Part shown: positions 11,737 through 22,602 of the stretch, one piece after another
Layout of the letters: every line of letters begins with the position of its first letter
Position numbering within the stretch: position 1 is the stretch's first letter
Assembly (NCBI GenBank): GCA_902623395.1
Contig: CACNTN010000001.1
Span: forward strand, 107,323 to 171,322
Length of the DNA: 64,000 nucleotides
Direction: 5' to 3'
Origin: an uncultured Pelagibacteraceae bacterium
GTDB taxonomy: Bacteria > Pseudomonadota > Alphaproteobacteria > Pelagibacterales > Pelagibacteraceae
The notes under the pieces: model-generated
Databases searched by the model: none
The model's input: only the letters and a program-made list of their open reading frames with translations
Told to the model about the DNA's origin: nothing
Position numbers and translations under genes: made by a program

Positions 11737-12961
11737 TCATAAGCTTTTCAACAAAACTATAAATTTTAATTTAAAGAGAATTAAATTAGTTCTAAAAAAG
11801 TTAGGTCATCCAGAAATTAAACTTAATAATGTAATTAATTTTCTTGGCTCAAGTGGAAAATTTACAACCTTACACTCCGTAAAATGTTTTATTGAAGCTA
11901 ATAGACAAACAACAACCGCTTATATCTCTCCGTCTCTCAAAGATATTAAAGAACGATTTTGGATGGGTGATAGATATTTGACTCATCAAGAAATTAAACA
12001 ATCAATTACAATAATTGCAAAATTAAAAGTGCCTCTTACTATTTTTGAAGTTCTTACAGTAGTTTATATCATTAATGCAGCAAAAAAAAACACTGACTAT
12101 CACTTAGTCGAAGCAGGCGCATTATTTGCCAAAGACTCAACCAATGTATTTGATTTTCCGCTAGCTCAAGTAATCGTGAATATTAACAAACAACATTTAA
12201 ATTTTCTTAAAAAAAAAACATTGGATGAGGTTGTTTATCAGAAAGTAGGTTTTTTATGTAATTTTACCGAAATTTATATTGGCAAACAAAGACCCGATGT
12301 ATTAAGCAAAATTAAAAGAAATCTTGGAAAAAATAAAAGTAAAATAAATTATCCAAATTCATGGAAATTAGTAAAAAAGAATAAAAATTTTTTTTATAAA
12401 GACAAGAAAAATAAAATTAAGCTTAATACCAAAAATATTCATTCAAAGGGATTATTAGAAAATCTTTGTCATGCAATAAAAATAGCACTTGATTTAAAAA
12501 TTGACAGAAAAGTCATTGAAAGAACTATTCCAAGTATTTCTTTTGAAGGAAGATTTCAGTATTTAAAAAAAGGTAAGATAAAAGATAAACTCTTTAGCAA
12601 TGAACAAATTATGTTAGATGGAGCTCATGCAGAAGCTGATGCCAAAAATCTAGCTAATTATTTAAGAAATTTAAAAGTGCCTAAATATGCTGTTTGGGCC
12701 ATGATGAAAAATAAAGAACCTGATTTATTCATAAAACAATTTAAGGGAATTTTTAAAAAGATAATAACTATGCCGATTGAAAATGAGAAGAATTGTTTAT
12801 CTGCAGAAAATTTAAAATCTATAGGTAAAAAAAATCAATTTAATGTAGATAAAGCTAATAACTTTAATGAAGCAATTAAGAAAATTAGCTCCTCTAAGAA
12901 GAAATTAATAAACTGTATAGGCTCTCTTTATAATATTGGAAATATACTAATTAAAAATTAG
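11699..12961 (+). CDS. folC: Folylpolyglutamate synthase / dihydrofolate synthase
   Basis: Mur-ligase-like; NFLGSSGKFTTLHSVKCFIE, FEGRFQYL, IMLDGAHAEADAKNLA; accD-folC adjacency. Confidence 0.88.
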   Translation: MSQSISLYKQLANHKLFNKTINFNLKRIKLVLKKLGHPEIKLNNVINFLGSSGKFTTLHSVKCFIEANRQTTTAYISPSLKDIKERFWMGDRYLTHQEIKQSITIIAKLKVPLTIFEVLTVVYIINAAKKNTDYHLVEAGALFAKDSTNVFDFPLAQVIVNINKQHLNFLKKKTLDEVVYQKVGFLCNFTEIYIGKQRPDVLSKIKRNLGKNKSKINYPNSWKLVKKNKNFFYKDKKNKIKLNTKNIHSKGLLENLCHAIKIALDLKIDRKVIERTIPSISFEGRFQYLKKGKIKDKLFSNEQIMLDGAHAEADAKNLANYLRNLKVPKYAVWAMMKNKEPDLFIKQFKGIFKKIITMPIENEKNCLSAENLKSIGKKNQFNVDKANNFNEAIKKISSSKKKLINCIGSLYNIGNILIKN

Positions 12962-13275
12962 ATATGTGGCTGGATAAACTCTAGCATATCTTTTTCATTA
13001 GTAGCTCCAACTTTAGTGCCCACAAGTTTTCCGCCCTTAAATAAAAGTATAGTAGGTACACCTCTTACTGAATACTTTGTAGGTTCGTTGGGCTGACTTT
13101 CGATATCATGATAGTAACAGTCAATTTTGTCAGCCATATCATTAGAAATCTTTTCTATGATTGGTTTTAATTGCTGGCATGGTCCGCACCAGCTTGCCGA
13201 AAATTGAATTAGATTTAATTTGCTTCCATTAATTTGATCTTGAAATTTTTCATCTGTAGAATTTTTAAATGCCAT
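12958..13275 (-). CDS. trxA: Thioredoxin
   Basis: FSASWCGPCQQLKPIIEKIS active site, RGVPTILLFKGG. Confidence 0.93.
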   Translation of the reverse strand: MAFKNSTDEKFQDQINGSKLNLIQFSASWCGPCQQLKPIIEKISNDMADKIDCYYHDIESQPNEPTKYSVRGVPTILLFKGGKLVGTKVGATNEKDMLEFIQPHI

Positions 13276-13309
13276 AATACTTAAATAAATAATTTAAATT
13301 TTTTGTCAA

Positions 13310-14731
13310 CTATGCAGATAAGTAATGTTTTTCTAAATCTTCAACGTATGCGTTAATTTCGTCTAAAATTTTTAATTTTTCATTATCCTCTTGTTTTTCA
13401 AATTTTGCTCTTAAAGTGTCAATTTCTGAATAAGTTCTTGGTATAGTGTTCCATTTTTCATTGTTCGTACTCAAAAGTTTCTTGGCTGTATCTTTATGTA
13501 TTAAATTATAATCCTCTTTACTTAAAACTTCAGGTTTTTCCATATAAAGAAGTTTTTTTCCAAAATATTGTAGACGCTCATCTTTAAATTTAGAAATTAC
13601 ACTTAATTTTTTATCCCACTCAGCAGAATGGAATTCAGGCATTACTTTATTGTCCTCTACTGTTGTAAATTTAGCGTAGATACTTTCCTCGTTATATAAA
13701 TCTTCTTGCGATTTACTTTGTTCTTTTTCCTCTATCTCTGAACGCTTTATAGATTGAATTTTTTCTGCAAATTCTTTATTTTTTCTAACAAGTTCTGCCC
13801 TAGCTTTTAATTTTGATATCCCTATAACTTTATACTCCTCAAATTTATCTCCATAAGATGGATTCATTATAACTGGATGTTTATTATGTCTTACGGTTCT
13901 CATGAACTTTGGTTGCTTTTTCATTGCAGCCTCTAGTTCCTTTAATGGCATGTTTAAGTAAGGTGTTGGATCATGTCTCAAATCAAAACATAACGGCCAT
14001 TGATATTGAGGGTGCTGACACACAAATGTTTGCACATAAGGTCTACTACGTCCGTAAAAGTATTCATTAGTGCAAAAGAAAAGTTCTTTTTTGATAATTT
14101 CTAATGATTGAGTTTTATCCATAGTTAACATGCTTGCTTTCCAAACATTAGGTGCTTTTTTACAAATAATTTTAGCTATTCCTACTGTTGCCATAACATC
14201 ACCAATTGCACTATGAGCGTTACCATGTTCAATGCCGTTAAGAGGCGCCATTTGATCTAATTTATAAACATCATTACCTTTTTCGTTAACAGAGTTTTTT
14301 AATGTGTTTGGGTAATACAAATTAGCTGCTCTAGCTAAACTCAGAACATCTCCTCTTGTGTTTCCATTTGTACTAGTGATGTAGGGATATTCTAAAGTTT
14401 GAAATAGAGTACACCTTAAAAACTCTTCGTCGAATTCTATCGAGTTGAATCCTATGTAAGTAGCTTTCCCCCATCTTTTTAAAGTTTCAACAAATTGTCT
14501 GATCATCTCATAATGAGATAAATTTGAATTCTTTAACATCTGGGGTGACGATTTATTTACAATCAGTGCCATAGCTTCAGGAATAATTCCTGGACTTAAC
14601 CTGCATCTAGCATCAAATCTATCTAGTTCATCAAGATTATCATTCGTTAAGACAGCACCAATTTGAATTATCTGACCCCAGTATTTATTAGATGAACTGG
14701 TCTCAAAATCGTAAAATACAAAGTTTGCCAC
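13310..14731 (-). CDS. sbcB: Exodeoxyribonuclease I (DnaQ-fold ssDNA exonuclease)
   Basis: FVFYDFETSSSNKYWGQIIQIGAVLTNDNL, YIGFNSIEFDEEFLRCTLFQTL, HSAIGDVMATVGIAKII; length and C-terminal helical region typical of ExoI. Confidence 0.88.
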   Translation of the reverse strand: MANFVFYDFETSSSNKYWGQIIQIGAVLTNDNLDELDRFDARCRLSPGIIPEAMALIVNKSSPQMLKNSNLSHYEMIRQFVETLKRWGKATYIGFNSIEFDEEFLRCTLFQTLEYPYITSTNGNTRGDVLSLARAANLYYPNTLKNSVNEKGNDVYKLDQMAPLNGIEHGNAHSAIGDVMATVGIAKIICKKAPNVWKASMLTMDKTQSLEIIKKELFFCTNEYFYGRSRPYVQTFVCQHPQYQWPLCFDLRHDPTPYLNMPLKELEAAMKKQPKFMRTVRHNKHPVIMNPSYGDKFEEYKVIGISKLKARAELVRKNKEFAEKIQSIKRSEIEEKEQSKSQEDLYNEESIYAKFTTVEDNKVMPEFHSAEWDKKLSVISKFKDERLQYFGKKLLYMEKPEVLSKEDYNLIHKDTAKKLLSTNNEKWNTIPRTYSEIDTLRAKFEKQEDNEKLKILDEINAYVEDLEKHYLSA

Positions 14732-15804
14732 TACTTTAATACTTTCAAGTTCTTTGGATTTGTTTCTGGATTAATCTCAATAGTTTCAGGTTCCTCAATG
14801 TTTGCTAAAACGTTTGTAATAGACCTTCCAGATTTACCTGCTTCATCTATTTTTTTCATAGTAAGATTGGCATTTCTGTAAATTTCTTCGATAAGTTTCA
14901 TGTGATTTACAAAATTAAATTTTAAGTTTTGTAGATCGTCATATATTTTTTTACTCTTTTGCGAAATCTGAACAGACTCATACCCCCAATGAAGAGTTTG
15001 TAGAAAAACAGACAGAGTTGTTGGGCCCAAAATATTAATATTATATTCACGATATAGCGTATGAATTAATGGTTCTTTAGTTTTCGGATCTCTATAATTA
15101 CACGCTTCAAAAAACAAACTTTCAGTCGGCAAGTATACAACTCCAAAAGGAGCTGTCTTTGGTGGGTCAATATAAAGCTCATTAATATTTGAGGCTTTAG
15201 TATCAATTGCAGAGGCAAGTTTCCTTCTTGCGTCTGCAGATAATTTTTTATCTTTAAGTTCATCTGCGTCTTTTATTTTTTCTAAGTGTGAAACTGGGAA
15301 AAATGAATCAACAGCTACCAAAACATCTTTTGGTAGTCTAATAGCAAACTCTACTGTGCCAGTAGTATTTGGTTTTATTCTTGCATTTGGAATATATTGA
15401 CTTGGTGACAAAAGGTCTTTTAATAATGATGCTAACGAAAACTCCGCAGCCGTTCCGAATTTCTTTACATTTGAAAATATTTTAGTTAAGTTTTCTTGAG
15501 ATTGTTCCATTTTTTGAACTTTTTCATTAAAATTTTTTACGTTTTCCTCGTATCTTGTAAAAGAGTCAGTAATATCCTTAGTAATTTTATTAGAAAAACT
15601 ATTATATGATGTTGCTACACTTTCAAATTTACTTGTCATTTCTTTCTTAAATTCTGAAAATTTTTCTTCCTCGTTTTTTTTCCGCTGTTCATCTAGAAGT
15701 TTTTCTTTTTTGAAACTTAAATAATATTTAAAACCAATAACACAAATTATAACTAACAATATTAATACAAGTGTATTTACTATTAAAAAAAGATTAGTAG
15801 TCAT
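14731..15804 (-). CDS. rmuC: DNA recombination protein RmuC
   Basis: N-terminal TM + coiled coil; GTAAEFSLASLLKDLLSPSQY, LPKDVLVAVDSFFPVSHLEKI, PTESLFFEA, GPTTLSVFLQTL RmuC motifs. Confidence 0.92.
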   Translation of the reverse strand: MTTNLFLIVNTLVLILLVIICVIGFKYYLSFKKEKLLDEQRKKNEEEKFSEFKKEMTSKFESVATSYNSFSNKITKDITDSFTRYEENVKNFNEKVQKMEQSQENLTKIFSNVKKFGTAAEFSLASLLKDLLSPSQYIPNARIKPNTTGTVEFAIRLPKDVLVAVDSFFPVSHLEKIKDADELKDKKLSADARRKLASAIDTKASNINELYIDPPKTAPFGVVYLPTESLFFEACNYRDPKTKEPLIHTLYREYNINILGPTTLSVFLQTLHWGYESVQISQKSKKIYDDLQNLKFNFVNHMKLIEEIYRNANLTMKKIDEAGKSGRSITNVLANIEEPETIEINPETNPKNLKVLK

Positions 15805-16117
15805 TTTTTCTAATTTCCTCCTCTCTTATAATAAAAATTCTCAAGTCTTTTCCTTGAATAACAATATGTTTTGCACCTTTTCTTTTCCATTTCGGACCTA
15901 TAAAAATTTTCATTTTTTTCTTTTCATCAATAATCATTTCATATTTATTCTTATATTTTTCTGCAGGTTTAATGCCATTAATTTTTCTCTCAATTTTCCT
16001 CCAATTCGCTGCTGTTCTAGAGCTAATATTAAATTTTGGTAATTCACATGGTGCATAAAACTTATCATCCTCAATTTGATCAACATTTATATAAGGTTTT
16101 TTTTTAATATCAGTCAT
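15794..16117 (-). CDS. Hypothetical protein (107 aa) between HTH protein and rmuC
   Basis: Open frame overlapping both neighbours (8 bp and 11 bp); no family recognised. Confidence 0.7.
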   Translation of the reverse strand: MTDIKKKPYINVDQIEDDKFYAPCELPKFNISSRTAANWRKIERKINGIKPAEKYKNKYEMIIDEKKKMKIFIGPKWKRKGAKHIVIQGKDLRIFIIREEEIRKNDY

Positions 16118-18080
16118 CTTTTGATTTTAAGTTTTGAACTTCAGCTTTCAGTTTTTCAATTTCATATTTAAGCTCTTTGTTAAATTCGAAAGTATCTCTT
16201 GCAATTAATTCCTGTTTCTTGACTCCCCTATCAATATTTCTCTCAGTTCTTTGATTAAATTCTGCTTGGCTTTTTTTTATTTCAGCAAAATATTTAGAGA
16301 AATCTGTTTCTATATTTCGTGGGCTTGGCTCTGACTTAAGTTCTACTACTTTTCCGTCTTCTGTTATTAAATCAGGTCTATATCTTTTTCGAATTGATAT
16401 GTTTTCAAGTTGCCTTTTCTTTATATTTTCAAGTTGTTCTATTGTTTCATTTGATATTTTTTTACTTTCCTTTAAAGATTTTTCAATACTGTCTAAATAT
16501 TTTTTATATTTTTGAGAGTCTATTTTTTCTCTATTGAAGTAGTTCGTTGTTAAATTGCTTTGCTTTATTAATTGAGATCTTAGTTCACTTTTTTTACTAA
16601 CTCTTTTACTATCTAGGACAGCTACAACTGGGAAAATGTTAATAGGTTTAACATTTTCCAATACAATTGAGTTCTGTAATAAATTAATTAGAATTTTTAA
16701 TTGAGTAAAATTTTTGGTATTTGCCAATGTTGTTATTAAGTCACTATGTGTTGAATAAATAGAAGTTATACCTTTAATAGATTTCTTATAATGTCCCACA
16801 ACAAAAATCGATGAATTTAATGAATATTTTATCAATTCATTCATTTGCTTCATAACTTCTATAACATCGGCTCCTTTATTAGCATCTTTATTTTGAGTTA
16901 ATAACTCCATATAAATTTTATCTTCTGATATTTCCTTTCTAAGCTCGTTTGCATCAATTTCAAAAACACAAAGTGTTAGATTTTTTAGATTTTCCTTTTC
17001 ATTTTCTTTATAATAAAAAATGTCTTTATTGTTCAAGGAGCATTCGGACGACGTTACTCTTATTGCTTCCACATCTGGCCTGTAAATATCCCTAGGACAA
17101 TTTATGCTATCAAGAGACTCCGTTTGAAATTCCTCTCGTTTTTTAGCTTTCAATTCTTGTTCTTTAACTCTTCCTGGAAAGATTTTACCTTTTATTAATT
17201 GGATTTTTCTCTGAATTTCGATTTTCTTAAATACATTCTCAAGTTCGTCATCTTTTTTAGAATCTTTTGAGTAAAGACTCATTATATATTCTATATCGAA
17301 AGCTTCCCCCTCAGTCGAAAAATCAACATAACCTTTTAACGGAATTTCAATATCATTAAATAATATTTCGCTTGGATCCATACCAAAAAACTTTGCATAA
17401 TCTTTGGCTGTTTGCCTATTCACATCTAACGTGTTTTGTATATGTCTATAAATTGTTGCCTCATTTAAACCAGTTCCTACCGCTATTTCTTTCGGAGTAA
17501 TATTTTTCTTTTTAATTATCTCATTTAAGATTTGATTTGGCGTTTTTTTGTCAAATATGGTGTTTTGCTCTTTGTCTATGACGTCGATACTTTTACCTTG
17601 CTGTTCTATATGATTTAAATGATTAATAAATGCTGAATTAATTACATTATCCCACTCTTTAATAAATTTCTCATGTTTAAATCTGTCCTTAATTCTTTTA
17701 GAAATTTCTAAAAATAATTTACTAGCTTCAAAGTGATTAATACGGTGCGTGAATTTAGCGTTGTTTCTTGCAAATACTACTTGTTCTACCCTAGATAATT
17801 GTTTTATTGATTGATGTTTATTCGATCTTAAAAATGATTTGTCAAAATAAAATAATTTTACTTCATATGAAAAATCAGCAGTTCTAGATTGTGTACCACT
17901 CTTTTTTGATTGTATTGTTGTGAATATCTCAAAATCATGCAGGAATAGACTTTTTTTTTGGTCGTTTGTAGGAGGCCTTGGAGACCATCCTCCTGAAAAT
18001 TTTTCTCCTTTATCTGTTTTTGGAGTATCCCATAATGTAAGTTTATCTTTTGGTTTTTTAATATTCTTTTTATTAGTCAT
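16110..18080 (-). CDS. 656-aa HTH (XRE-type) protein with C-terminal coiled coil
   Basis: Central HTH TPNQILNEIIKKKNITPKEIAVGTGLNEATIYRHIQNTLDVNRQTAKDYAKFFGMDPSEIL; downstream IPLKGYVDF region; C-terminal RYRPDLITEDGKVVELKSEPSPRNIE plus coiled coil. Confidence 0.75.
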   Translation of the reverse strand: MTNKKNIKKPKDKLTLWDTPKTDKGEKFSGGWSPRPPTNDQKKSLFLHDFEIFTTIQSKKSGTQSRTADFSYEVKLFYFDKSFLRSNKHQSIKQLSRVEQVVFARNNAKFTHRINHFEASKLFLEISKRIKDRFKHEKFIKEWDNVINSAFINHLNHIEQQGKSIDVIDKEQNTIFDKKTPNQILNEIIKKKNITPKEIAVGTGLNEATIYRHIQNTLDVNRQTAKDYAKFFGMDPSEILFNDIEIPLKGYVDFSTEGEAFDIEYIMSLYSKDSKKDDELENVFKKIEIQRKIQLIKGKIFPGRVKEQELKAKKREEFQTESLDSINCPRDIYRPDVEAIRVTSSECSLNNKDIFYYKENEKENLKNLTLCVFEIDANELRKEISEDKIYMELLTQNKDANKGADVIEVMKQMNELIKYSLNSSIFVVGHYKKSIKGITSIYSTHSDLITTLANTKNFTQLKILINLLQNSIVLENVKPINIFPVVAVLDSKRVSKKSELRSQLIKQSNLTTNYFNREKIDSQKYKKYLDSIEKSLKESKKISNETIEQLENIKKRQLENISIRKRYRPDLITEDGKVVELKSEPSPRNIETDFSKYFAEIKKSQAEFNQRTERNIDRGVKKQELIARDTFEFNKELKYEIEKLKAEVQNLKSKDD

Positions 18081-18275
18081 TTATCTTCATATAATAATTA
18101 TACATCTTTTTGTCAAGACTTTACCGTTTTATGCGAAAAATATTATAGCATATGGATAAACAAATATAATTAGCTTATTTATCGCTATTTTACTAGCTTT
18201 TTTGTCATTTATAATACATCTTAATGCAACTAATACGCACTTGCTATTGATATTTTTACAGATCTTATTAAATGT

Positions 18276-18311
18276 CCTCCCATGAACTTTATTAAAAACA
18301 AACATAGGAGG
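18276..18311 (+). promoter_or_regulatory. Candidate SD-sequestering stem-loop in the leader of the nurA-herA operon
   Basis: CCTCCCATG (18276-18284) pairs with CATAGGAGG (18303-18311), 8 of 9 positions, 18-nt loop; GGAGG is the SD of ATG 18321. Confidence 0.55.
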
Positions 18312-18320
18312 TTTAATAAA

Positions 18321-18566
18321 ATGCAAAGCTCAAGAAGACATGGATTCGATTCTTTATATCTTTCTTCTCCTTTCTATCAATTCATGTCTTCAGGAGCTGG
18401 TAAAGTTAAAGTTCATCAAAGGTCATTTAAAAACAAATACCTGGCAGCAAAATTCTGCAAACGTATTTCTCAACTATACAAAGCAATGTTTAAAAAAAAA
18501 TTAAAAATAGTAAGAAACGGTAATTTAAGAAAAGTCAAATATACAACTGGAGGATTAATAAACTAA
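18321..18566 (+). CDS. Small basic hypothetical protein (81 aa), first gene of nurA-herA operon
   Basis: ORF track starts at 18282, but a strong SD (ATAGGAGGTTTAATAAA-ATG) supports ATG 18321: MQSSRRHGFDSLYLSSPFYQFMSSGAGKVKVHQRSFKNKY. Confidence 0.8.
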   Translation: MQSSRRHGFDSLYLSSPFYQFMSSGAGKVKVHQRSFKNKYLAAKFCKRISQLYKAMFKKKLKIVRNGNLRKVKYTTGGLIN

Positions 18567-19861
18567 TGAAAGACTTTTACTCAACGATTAAAAATAACTC
18601 TAATTTATTCATAAACTTTATGAATAAAGCAATAACAGCTAGTCCACAAGTACAAGATAATTTTTTGAAGGTAACAAATAATGTTGCTAATACAATTTAT
18701 AAACTTTTAAAACATGGAAATCATATAATTGATCTTGAATATATACCTAATGACTTTTGGATTAAGAATAAGAATAAAACTGTAGCGTTTGTAGACGGAG
18801 GTGTAGACAAGGCTTCTATAATTTCCACAGCACCTTTATCTATTAGAGCAGGAAGCTACATCGTAAACAAATCAAAACAAAAAGAGCTTTTTGAAGAGAA
18901 TATGATCTTCTTGGGAGATCTTTACGATCCAAATAATGAACTTTATGAATTTTTGGAGGACGCTCACGAAGAAGAAGCTCTTTTATCTCGAAAAAAAGAC
19001 GGAGCTAGAATCATCTTTGAAGCAGCGACTTTAGTTAAACATGTTTTAATGAAACAGAGTTTAGACTATTGTTTTTTACATGGACCAATTCAGGCTATAC
19101 TAACCCCTTTTACACATGCTTCTTTCCCACCATTCTGTCAATTTGCAGTAGAGAATATTTTACCTTTCAATAACAATAGAAAGCTCAATAAGGATCAAAG
19201 ACATTTTATTAATATATATCTTGAGTGCATTAAGTTTATTAAAAAAAGTAAGTTTCCTATTTGGGGTGTGGTAGAAACAGCGGTTTCTGCGTCTTATATA
19301 AAAAATATTCTCTTCATAAATAAAAATAAAGGGATAATCTCTCAAAAGGATTATTCTCAAACTATATCGGTAATAAACAAGTATAGAATTACAGATACAA
19401 ATTTGTTTGAAATAATACTCAAAAAAAATCAAGGTCTTAAGCCTTTAGAAATTCAAAAACAATTTTATGGGTACAAATTAATTCAAAAATCTATTTGGGA
19501 CGATGTAGTTGAACAATACCCAAATATCTTCATGGGTTATATCAAAGTTACTGATAACCAGTGTCCGATAAGAATTGAAACTTTAAATTATCCAGAAAAT
19601 TTTATTAAGGATTACCATTATATCCTTGCCGTATCGAAATTGCTTCCATCGTATTCTTTTCCAATAGGGTTAGACGTAGTTGATAAATTTGCAAAGATAC
19701 CCAACTGGTTATCTAAAGCATCTAGAAATTATCATACATCTTACTTGCTAAAGAAAGCGATTGCTAAAAGAGATAAAAATACAATCTCATTGGCTGTTAA
19801 AATCTTATCAAAAAAAAATAGAGGATGGTCGAATAGACCAGCTAGGGGGTTAAGAAGATGA
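18566..19861 (+). CDS. nurA: NurA-domain nuclease
   Basis: NurA core: TVAFVDGGVDKASIISTAPLSIRAGSY, CFLHGPIQAILTPF, IWGVVETAVSASYI, FMGYIKVTDNQCPIRIETL; overlaps herA by 4 bp. Confidence 0.85.
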   Translation: MKDFYSTIKNNSNLFINFMNKAITASPQVQDNFLKVTNNVANTIYKLLKHGNHIIDLEYIPNDFWIKNKNKTVAFVDGGVDKASIISTAPLSIRAGSYIVNKSKQKELFEENMIFLGDLYDPNNELYEFLEDAHEEEALLSRKKDGARIIFEAATLVKHVLMKQSLDYCFLHGPIQAILTPFTHASFPPFCQFAVENILPFNNNRKLNKDQRHFINIYLECIKFIKKSKFPIWGVVETAVSASYIKNILFINKNKGIISQKDYSQTISVINKYRITDTNLFEIILKKNQGLKPLEIQKQFYGYKLIQKSIWDDVVEQYPNIFMGYIKVTDNQCPIRIETLNYPENFIKDYHYILAVSKLLPSYSFPIGLDVVDKFAKIPNWLSKASRNYHTSYLLKKAIAKRDKNTISLAVKILSKKNRGWSNRPARGLRR

Positions 19862-21579
19862 GTAAGTCAAATAAATGGCCAGTTATTGGAACAGTATTAG
19901 GTGAAACAAACATTAATGAATTTTCATTTACTTTAAAAAGCCATAAGGCAAGCAAGGGAGATATTGTTTGCACGCAAACAAAAATTCCAAGCGATATTGA
20001 TGAAAATAAGATTATAGAGGTTACAGTGTGGGGTAAAATTACTAGTATTGATAGTTTTAACCAATTTTTTCCAAGAGAAGCAGCACAGGAGCTTACTAAT
20101 GAAAATATCAATATTGCAGATACTATTTTACCTACAACAAGGGACGAGTTAATTTGTAACGTAAATATTCTAGGCTATACAAAAAATACAGATCAAAAAC
20201 TTAAATTAAAACCTTTAAATTATCCTGTAAAACCAGCCGCAATGGTAACTTATCCATCGGAAAAAGATTTAGAAAAACTATTAGTGAGTGATCTTGGTGC
20301 AAAATTTCCAATTCTACTTGGCAACTTATCTACAAGAAAGAACGTAAAAATTCAAATAGATGCTGAAAAGTTAGCGGCTAGACACATGCTCGTAACTGGA
20401 ATGTCTGGTGCAGGTAAAACTGTAGCTGTAAGAAGAATTATTTCTGAATACATGAAACTAAACTATCCTTTATTAGTTATAGATATTCATGGAGATTATT
20501 TAGGTTTTGTTCAAAAACAAAAAAAATACTTCAAAGATAATAAAGTGAAACTTTTTTACCCCAAATTATCAGTGAATTCAGATGATAAAGAAATTGTTTA
20601 TACATTAATTGAAAAATTAGGAAAAAAACTTACCGACCCTCAGAATGACTACCTTGATACGCTTATTAGTAAAAATAATTATGAAGGAGGTGATTTATCT
20701 AAATATATAGAAAAATTAATTATTGAGTCTAACAAAATCTATAAAATGCGTAGCACAAAAACTATTGATAAAGCAAAAAGTACTTATAACCAACATAAGC
20801 CCGCAAGTATTTATGTCGTAACTAGGAGTTTAAGAGAAGTTTTAAAAAGACTTAATAAGATGGAACAAACCAATTATAAGCATAGAAAAAAAATGAGCGA
20901 TCTTAAGTTTGAGGAACTGCCGGATCCTGCAACTGAGCCCGAAAAAATTATAAGTAAAGGTCAATTAAGTATACTTTATCTGAAGGGATACCAATCTCTA
21001 CCTGCTAGCGCGATCTTATCAATTTTAATGGAGTCATTATTTAATATTAGACAAGAAATAAATGAAGAAATTTGCCCATTCTTAACTATCATAGAAGAAG
21101 CTCAAAATTTTGTCCCATCGAGATCTGAAAATAAAGATAATTTACCTTCCGTTGAAACAATAAGAAGAATAATCACGGAGGGTAGAAAATTTGGTACAGG
21201 GATTTGTTTAGTAAGTCAGCAACCTGATAGACTTGATGATACCATCATAAGTCAATGTAACTCTCATATTTATTTAAGGTTAAAAAATCAAAAGGCGCAA
21301 AAGTTTTGTAGGGATACATCAGAATACGCTGACAAAGAAGATACTGCTCAATTACCTAATCTAGCTAATGGTCAGGCAATAATTTGCGGTCAAGTCGTTA
21401 ACTTTTCTTTGCCAGTTCAAATTAAATTTGATGAGGAGCTTTTAAACGATGATATTCAAAATGAAAATTTTATATCAATGGTAGAAAACTGGGATGATAA
21501 CAATACAGTTAAACTGAGAAAAAAATTTGCCAAAGATTTTTCGAATATTTCTTCATCAGACCAAAGGAGGCCAAATTAG
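19858..21579 (+). CDS. herA: HerA-family ATPase/DNA translocase (HAS-barrel + FtsK/HerA P-loop)
   Basis: Walker A VTGMSGAGKTVAVRRII, IDIHGDYLGF, Walker B FLTIIEEAQNFVP, GTGICLVSQQPDRLDDTIISQCNSHIYLRLKN. Confidence 0.93.
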   Translation: MSKSNKWPVIGTVLGETNINEFSFTLKSHKASKGDIVCTQTKIPSDIDENKIIEVTVWGKITSIDSFNQFFPREAAQELTNENINIADTILPTTRDELICNVNILGYTKNTDQKLKLKPLNYPVKPAAMVTYPSEKDLEKLLVSDLGAKFPILLGNLSTRKNVKIQIDAEKLAARHMLVTGMSGAGKTVAVRRIISEYMKLNYPLLVIDIHGDYLGFVQKQKKYFKDNKVKLFYPKLSVNSDDKEIVYTLIEKLGKKLTDPQNDYLDTLISKNNYEGGDLSKYIEKLIIESNKIYKMRSTKTIDKAKSTYNQHKPASIYVVTRSLREVLKRLNKMEQTNYKHRKKMSDLKFEELPDPATEPEKIISKGQLSILYLKGYQSLPASAILSILMESLFNIRQEINEEICPFLTIIEEAQNFVPSRSENKDNLPSVETIRRIITEGRKFGTGICLVSQQPDRLDDTIISQCNSHIYLRLKNQKAQKFCRDTSEYADKEDTAQLPNLANGQAIICGQVVNFSLPVQIKFDEELLNDDIQNENFISMVENWDDNNTVKLRKKFAKDFSNISSSDQRRPN

Positions 21580-21860
21580 TGTCATATGAAATTCCACTTC
21601 TTACTATGAGGATGGCTGCTACAGCTTTACTTTTCATAGCAATTTGGAACATTTGGACTTTCAGAATAACTCCAAGATTTTGTGCTCCATTTGCTTTTCT
21701 ATTTAATATTTCAGGTATTATTTTTTTAACTCTTGGAATTAAATATGAAATCTTTGATTTAGTAAGAGGCGGTGGTGTAATTTTGTTTGTTTCATACATC
21801 TTAATAATAAGTTTCCTAATTGATAACTTTCTAAGGAGTAAAAATGATAGCAAAGATTAA
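21579..21860 (+). CDS. Small membrane protein (93 aa)
   Basis: GTG start overlaps herA stop (TAGTG); about three hydrophobic segments. Confidence 0.7.
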   Translation: MSYEIPLLTMRMAATALLFIAIWNIWTFRITPRFCAPFAFLFNISGIIFLTLGIKYEIFDLVRGGGVILFVSYILIISFLIDNFLRSKNDSKD

Positions 21861-22035
21861 ATGTATTTATTGTTTTGGTGCGGGTAGAGAAATTATTAGG
21901 ACACCATTAGTAACCTTTGGGAAGTTTGGAATTTTTAGAGAAAAAACTAGGCTCTGCATTGTTTGCTATGGAAAAGGTCATCTTCACCCTCAAGTATTAT
22001 ATGACCTTGAACAGGACTGTAGGACTTTTCATTAA
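21844..22035 (+). CDS. Small zinc-binding protein with paired CxxCxGxG motifs (63 aa)
   Basis: KCIYCFGAGREI ... LCIVCYGKGHLH: two DnaJ-type CxxCxGxG half-sites; SD AAGGAG before ATG. Confidence 0.75.
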   Translation: MIAKIKCIYCFGAGREIIRTPLVTFGKFGIFREKTRLCIVCYGKGHLHPQVLYDLEQDCRTFH

Positions 22036-22265
22036 TGAAAATTTTATCTGCGGATAAAGTTGAGGTCAGAATTGAAAGGCAGCCAGATAGCAGCGATTGT
22101 AAATGGTGCCTTTATTGTAAAATAGAAAAAAAAAATAAATCAAAATTATTATTCATGATTAAGACCAATGTTTCTCCTTATTTGTTATTTCAACAAAATA
22201 AAATAAATTTAATTGAAAATTCAAAAAAAATTAAATCTGAGGTTCTAAAGCACAGTGAACTTTAA
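22035..22265 (+). CDS. Hypothetical protein (76 aa)
   Basis: TAATG overlap with previous gene; contains SDCKWCLYC cysteine cluster. Confidence 0.65.
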   Translation: MKILSADKVEVRIERQPDSSDCKWCLYCKIEKKNKSKLLFMIKTNVSPYLLFQQNKINLIENSKKIKSEVLKHSEL

Positions 22266-22602
22266 AAGAGAAGAATTAGATCTAATTTTAAAAAAATGTT
22301 CGGTAAAACTTGATTTAAAAGAATACAACGAGTTATGTAGAATACTGTGGGTATCATTAAATGGTGCTACTTTTGAAATTAAAAATCCATGGAGCTCAGA
22401 TTTTTTAAGAGACTGTGAAGATATTTGGAAAAATGAAAATAATATCTCAAAAAAGATTATCGAGAATAGTCCTAACATCATCGATTTTGATGAAAGAAAA
22501 GAAAAGCTTATACAAGATCTTCATGAAGAGATTGAAAATTTAAAAATGAGAAACGATCCAGATATTATTCCTGATGACTTTGAGGTAGATGATGAGCCTT
22601 AA
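22255..22602 (+). CDS. Hypothetical protein (115 aa), last gene of nurA-herA operon
   Basis: GTG start overlapping previous gene; no family recognised. Confidence 0.65.
   Translation: MNFKREELDLILKKCSVKLDLKEYNELCRILWVSLNGATFEIKNPWSSDFLRDCEDIWKNENNISKKIIENSPNIIDFDERKEKLIQDLHEEIENLKMRNDPDIIPDDFEVDDEP

Follow-up and report, generated by a model that had tools for sequence, protein, structure and literature searches.

A patchily distributed HerA-NurA locus of SAR11 bacteria with a constant core and exchangeable front ends, probably a defence island

A stretch of 64,000 nucleotides from an uncultured Pelagibacteraceae bacterium of the SAR11 group (GCA_902623395.1, contig CACNTN010000001.1, positions 107,323 to 171,322; this whole stretch is called the window in the following) carries seven adjoining plus-strand genes (18282-22602) that encode a small basic protein (A), a NurA-family nuclease, a HerA-type DNA translocase and four further small proteins (D, E, F and G). 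In related genomes these genes form the constant core of a module in which the genes in front of the core are exchangeable. The first-pass annotation of this DNA had treated the seven genes as the complete unit; they are indeed its core, but the unit is larger, and the front end of the window (15794-18080, minus strand) lies outside the segment described at that time. We consider it probable that this module, whose distribution is patchy, serves SAR11 as a defence island, in which a constant HerA-NurA effector is combined with an exchangeable transcriptional switch. SAR11 bacteria belong to the most abundant cells on Earth, and little is known of how they defend themselves against pelagiphages, which are equally abundant. 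The literature searched, which lay mostly outside subscription journals, contained no description of this locus.

Exchangeable front ends and their promoter-like motifs

Three plus-strand genes, encoding an ATPase and the proteins P2 and P3, precede gene A in 20 of 20 testable loci, i.e. those of the genome collection which reach far enough upstream and do not have the window's type of front end. A comparison of 17 loci from one genus gave median identities of 84% (HerA), 81% (NurA) and 66% (A), and the flanking genes hisG and RmuC are in the same range (74% and 68%), whereas the values amount to only 22% for the ATPase, 17% for P2 and 19% for P3. Five classes of ATPases and six classes of P3 can be distinguished, which include loci of both genera that carry the module, and the two classifications agree with each other (adjusted Rand index 0.88 after removal of near-duplicates, 0 of 20000 permutations). 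Because the classes cross genera and the ATPase and P3 classifications agree, the front ends have been swapped as cassettes, with the core kept in place. P2 diverges even within the classes.

The front-end ATPase is AAA_15/OLD/RecF-like and matches defence ATPases in 18 of 18 loci tested, with NsnB of the Menshen system as best match (3.6e-41) and further matches to AriA and AbiLi; in the PDB it matches OLD, RecF, AriA and PtuA, and only short matches to Rad50 were obtained. P2 gave nothing in Pfam or PADLOC, and only a fold search with its predicted structure (predicted local distance difference test, pLDDT, 67) placed it, with the MIT_C (PLD-like) domain of MITD1 as match at a probability of up to 1.00. 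The P3 profile matches full-length sigma factors (SigA with E 1.9e-19 over positions 24-311, RpoH with 1.1e-14) and shows sigma regions 2 and 4 in order, although individual members match weakly; in PADLOC, P3 has only MzaA and CARF matches.

In every copy, P2 and P3 are separated by a gap of 66-173 nt, which contains TTGAAA followed by GCGGTTATATAA in class 0 and GCGTATATCT in class 1. These two best-sampled P3 classes have each their own motif, GCGGTTATWWW in class 0 and GCGTATATCTW in class 1, situated 5' of rmuC, of the ATPase gene and of the sigma gene; one locus (L055) carries the variant GCGGGTAT at all its motif sites. The class 0 motif was found upstream of P3 with at most one mismatch in 8 of 8 class 0 loci and 0 of 10 others, and upstream of rmuC with at most two mismatches in 8 of 8 class 0 loci, counts which are descriptive since the motifs were derived from the same loci. 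Among module-less genomes, the region upstream of rmuC contains, with at most one mismatch, the class 0 motif in 0 of 19 and the class 1 motif in 1 of 19 cases. It is difficult to account for the contrast between the classes and with the empty sites unless a class-specific regulator exists, P3 being the obvious candidate. In the single module-less case, L034, the class 1 motif reads ACGTATATCTT and is possibly a scar left by a lost module.

In the window as well as in the loci L048 and L049/L017, a minus-strand gene pair replaces ATPase, P2 and P3. The larger protein, HTH656 (16110..18080), is repressor-like with an HTH_26 domain and homologous to gp05 of the Pelagibacter phage HTVC028P; its C-terminal RPDLITEDGKVVELKSEP resembles, weakly, a PD-(D/E)XK motif. 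Its small basic partner g107 (15794..16117, minus strand) takes the position of the small helix-turn-helix (HTH)/AlpA-like protein beside the homologous phage gene, but the sequence similarity is too weak to call. Relatives of HTH656 occur on pelagiphage or prophage sequence beside such a small HTH/AlpA-like gene, and judged from their sequences these phage proteins look like CI-type repressors. An additional match of HTH656 to an open reading frame (ORF) of L032 was discarded, because it looks like a chance match to an outer-membrane-receptor-type protein. Among the core proteins, F has homologues in pelagiphage-type sequence (E 7e-10 and 3.6e-5, weaker in HTVC028P). G-like and 98-aa proteins gave no significant profile match in phages. 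Between the divergently oriented front-end pair and A lies an intergenic region (18081..18281), in which a stretch that includes TATAAT is conserved in the nearest relative. The class-specific sigma motifs are absent from this region upstream of A (best 3-4 mismatches), and a search for operator repeats between HTH656 and A revealed no convincing conserved palindrome. A divergent fourth case, L087, has the order A, a 759-aa HTH656 relative, a 122-aa HTH protein and RmuC. The 759-aa protein (L087:823-3102) has in its C-terminal part the stretch VLIVVTGGNNFRLEEADEVVNTIRKEMSPEADVIFGAILDENMENKIRV, a look-alike of the FtsZ C-terminal domain, which might act as a sensor of, or a decoy for, phage proteins targeting FtsZ.

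The HerA-NurA core and its chromosomal site

The overlapping stop and start codons that the first-pass annotation had noticed are present, with overlaps of 1, 4, 1, 17, 1 and 11 nt between the successive ORFs. The gene order A-NurA-HerA-D-E-F is likewise conserved in about 20 further loci, only some of which have G as well; P3 and the genes from A to F are mostly tightly packed in the module copies. All seven genes are under purifying selection, with ratios of nonsynonymous to synonymous substitutions relative to the nearest relative of 0.01 for NurA, 0.00 for HerA, 0.28 for A, 0.08 for D, 0.15 for E, 0 for F and 0.16 for G.

NurA (18566..19861, plus strand, 431 aa, RNase H-like) had been correctly named, and the assignment is based on PF09376, fold and alignments. 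Because the Pfam cut-off was passed narrowly (22.2 bits compared to 21), the fold was checked with an AlphaFold model computed from 17 SAR11 sequences (pLDDT 70). Its top six PDB matches are all crystal or cryo-electron microscopy structures of NurA (best E 4.6e-8, probability 1.00), the matches including 2ygk, 3tai, 3taz and 9x1l_G, with the NurA-like TdpB at rank 8. In alignments of relatives, D77-G-G, E152, H172-G-P and D373 are invariant; H172 and D373 may stand where other NurA proteins carry Asp and His as metal ligands. The naming of HerA (19858..21579, plus strand, 573 aa), a HerA/FtsK-type hexameric DNA translocase, is also borne out by Pfam (DUF87 78.8 bits, HerA_C 40.9 bits), by Walker A (GMSGAGKT) and Walker B (TIIEEA) motifs, by the HerA models of PADLOC and by profile matches to HerA chains in the PDB, among them the Thermococcus kodakarensis HerA-NurA complex 9x1l (E 2.8e-46). 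With the HerA repair equivalog NF040819 it scores 153 bits against a cut-off of 970, hence below the equivalog level.

The closest named loci are from Pelagibacteraceae single-cell genomes, which confirms that the host belongs to SAR11. A search of 147 genomes from the order detected NurA in 5 of them, one of 297 genomes from the family detected HerA in 10, and approximately 3% of Pelagibacteraceae genomes carry the module. This NurA was found in no other genome of a class-wide sample of 385 Alphaproteobacteria. A scan of 84,980 species genomes resulted in 29 loci, all from records labelled Pelagibacteraceae or Pelagibacter (two of these of divergent type), save two short contigs of one metagenome-assembled genome labelled only Proteobacteria.

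Without the module, the gene order is folC, trxA, ExoI, (a PD-(D/E)XK gene), RmuC and then the next core gene of the chromosome, which is ADP-ribosylglycohydrolase-rlmN in the window's genus and hisG-hisZ-hisS in the other. Carriers of both genera have the module exactly between RmuC (14731..15804, minus strand, in the window) and this next gene; in relatives that lack the module, the site is cleanly empty. The possibility that RmuC and ExoI travel with the module was rejected, because both are kept in genomes without it. Compared with L024, the window shows an identity of only 57% for NurA and 59% for HerA, yet of 92-97% for D to G and of 91-97% when ADP-ribosylglycohydrolase and rlmN are included; alleles are thus replaced in place at this site.

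Predicted function and alternative explanations

The first-pass annotation had left the choice between a housekeeping resection complex and a fixed defence module. The rarity of NurA and HerA in the order and family and the clean empty site speak against a housekeeping role, the defence module fits best, and the assumption of undescribed accessory subunits beside NurA-HerA was right. The patchiness, the fixed hot spot, the allele swapping, the defence-type ATPases and the phage-related regulators taken together argue for an antiviral defence with NurA-HerA as the DNA-degrading effector. As known for other HerA-NurA pairs, the HerA hexamer would pump double-stranded DNA into the NurA dimer, which would cut it; A, E and F may be adaptors that bind DNA or the complex, and D may provide anchoring in the membrane. 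In most carriers, the OLD/RecF-like ATPase and the fast-diverging MIT_C/PLD-like P2 would sense infection, and the dedicated sigma70-like P3 would switch on its own sigma-A-NurA-HerA operon as well as rmuC and the ATPase operon. The putative switch of the window is the CI-type phage-repressor relative HTH656, which together with its small partner is encoded divergently from A; most likely, HTH656 keeps the operon off, and a phage inactivating such repressors would cause derepression.

More tentatively, the locus may represent a new immunity design, in which one conserved HerA-NurA effector at a fixed site is served by interchangeable switches at the level of transcription. Such a switch would be either an ATPase-sensor set that brings its own sigma factor and promoters to match, which also capture rmuC, or a captured phage-type repressor as decoy for phage anti-repressors or induction. 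If true, a streamlined genome would diversify its immunity cheaply through a fixed locus, a constant nuclease core and swappable, co-evolving sensor/promoter sets, and HerA-NurA, usually classed under DNA repair, would gain a link to defence. The sigma-promoter and repressor-operator predictions can be tested directly in laboratory strains.

Several points weigh against the reading as a defence island with an exchangeable switch. The antiviral role and DNA cleavage, like sensing and repression, are predicted from the genes, and several other variable SAR11 traits are patchy, too. The fold match of P2 depends on a model with a pLDDT of 67. Besides the descriptive nature of the motif counts, the two motifs that stand inverted between rmuC and the ATPase gene might form an operator dyad instead of two promoters. 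Moreover, the window itself has neither a sigma protein nor the ATPase, and its presumed switch is deduced from homology only.

Bacterial HerA-nuclease pairs are known in defence. HerA-Sir2 and HerA-DUF4297 systems likewise couple a HerA translocase to an effector enzyme, but the SAR11 effector is NurA, the scores lie far below the NCBIfam equivalog cut-offs and no Sir2 or DUF4297 matches were found among the window proteins. TdpAB of Thermus (PDB 8wfd, 8wet), an anti-phage system tied to DNA phosphorothioate modification, combines a HerA-like ATPase with a NurA-like nuclease, and its structures are matched by the SAR11 HerA profile and NurA fold; a DNA-modification enzyme of the TdpC kind was not recognised by Pfam among the window proteins, TdpC itself not having been searched for. 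The Menshen system (NsnABC) shares with the SAR11 front ends, though not with the window itself, the NsnB-type ATPase in all the loci tested. However, P2 and P3 match no Menshen model, neither NsnA nor NsnC, and the DUF262 gene included in Menshen (PMC10952713) is absent from the SAR11 locus. The HerA-NurA systems of archaea and Deinococcus (T. kodakarensis, 9x1l; D. radiodurans) have in common with the SAR11 locus the RNase H-like fold of NurA and the joint encoding with HerA, but the latter is patchy, comprises six or more extra genes and lacks Mre11-Rad50: from the archaeal operon, no Mre11 is present at the locus, and the ATPase is OLD/RecF/NsnB-like. For the archaeal HerA-NurA an antiviral role is argued from T. 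kodakarensis as well (PMC12977600).

In Deinococcus HerA-NurA resects DNA ends (PMC9960219), and a resection complex for recombinational repair of double-strand breaks, of the kind present in archaea and Deinococcus but with lineage-specific subunits, has to be considered. The repair-type flanking genes ExoI and RmuC, the apparent co-regulation of rmuC in class 0 and 1 loci and the finding of no AddA above the cut-off in 147 genomes of the order would agree with it. However, a module present in approximately 3% of genomes is not needed for repair, ExoI and RmuC persist without it, an Mre11 or Rad50 pair is missing and repair complexes do not have hypervariable front ends, so that we regard repair as improbable. 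A replacement of AddAB by NurA-HerA was also rejected, because the AddA matches are partial, of UvrD type and present in both carriers and non-carriers, with none over the cut-off.

A machine for DNA export or import, like donation by TdtA-NurA in Thermus, where the FtsK-family translocase TdtA pairs with NurA (PMC7767461), or like archaeal Ced, keeps some probability because of the conserved small membrane protein D after HerA, which would be its membrane part. The weak match of the CedD profile to HerA and the DNA exchange of SAR11 via homologous recombination point in the same direction, but competence, pilus or mating genes are absent from the locus, and a defence-type ATPase and a dedicated sigma factor are foreign to such machines; genetic exchange is thus unlikely, though the least so among the rivals. 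The phage homologues of HTH656 and F could finally indicate a domesticated pelagiphage remnant or a pelagiphage-spread cassette for superinfection exclusion that serves the phage, not the cell. This appears the most improbable, as the site has no integrase or att, the chromosomal position is the same across two genera, and single-sequence searches of IMG/VR (NurA and HerA) and of 50,697 phage records (NurA) gave nothing, by which spread by viruses was rejected.

Small core genes and side observations

Gene A (18282..18566, plus strand) had been placed at 18321 with 81 aa. The ORF is real, but alignment with relatives moves its start to the ATG at 18282 (94 aa, isoelectric point 11.2), and the N-terminus MNFIKNKHRR aligns with MNFNFNKTKQRR and similar starts in other relatives. 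A has a conserved C-terminal RSF..K..C..F...KK...Y domain and stands immediately 5' of NurA in every checked module copy that is not cut off. A tRNA fragment within A, hinted at by the T-arm-like peptide motifs RVPVTAL and HGFDS, was rejected, because no such DNA element exists and ARAGORN found none. The plus-strand genes behind HerA encode D (21579..21860, GTG start), a membrane protein of 93 aa with three hydrophobic segments, E (21844..22035, 63 aa), which is zinc-ribbon-like with CxxC...CxxC invariant in the alignment, F (22035..22265, 76 aa) with invariant C22, W24 and C25, and G (22255..22602, 115 aa, GTG start). For A, D, E, F and G no family above noise was found in Pfam, NCBIfam, PADLOC and PHROGs.

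In one genome without the module (G144), the rmuC/hisG site is occupied by another insert of 7 kb (L044:10282-17113) with genes for a HATPase-like protein of 608 aa and a protein of 658 aa; this site may be a general hot spot. In the window's genus, the neighbouring genes trxA and ExoI (12958-14731) exist in two states among relatives, with approximately 30-40% or 70-97% identity, hence the variable region may extend beyond the module. Some relatives carry a sulfotransferase-like gene between hisG and hisZ (L023:12988-13833), and a 220-aa ORF with a GIY-YIG-like motif lies between NurA and HerA in others (L022:8885-9547, L072:11281-11943, also L069 and L074). A second, divergent NurA-HerA type (NurA 28%, HerA 37% identical) occurs elsewhere in the genome at L025, L075 and L076, where it adjoins a C5 DNA methyltransferase and an HNH protein.

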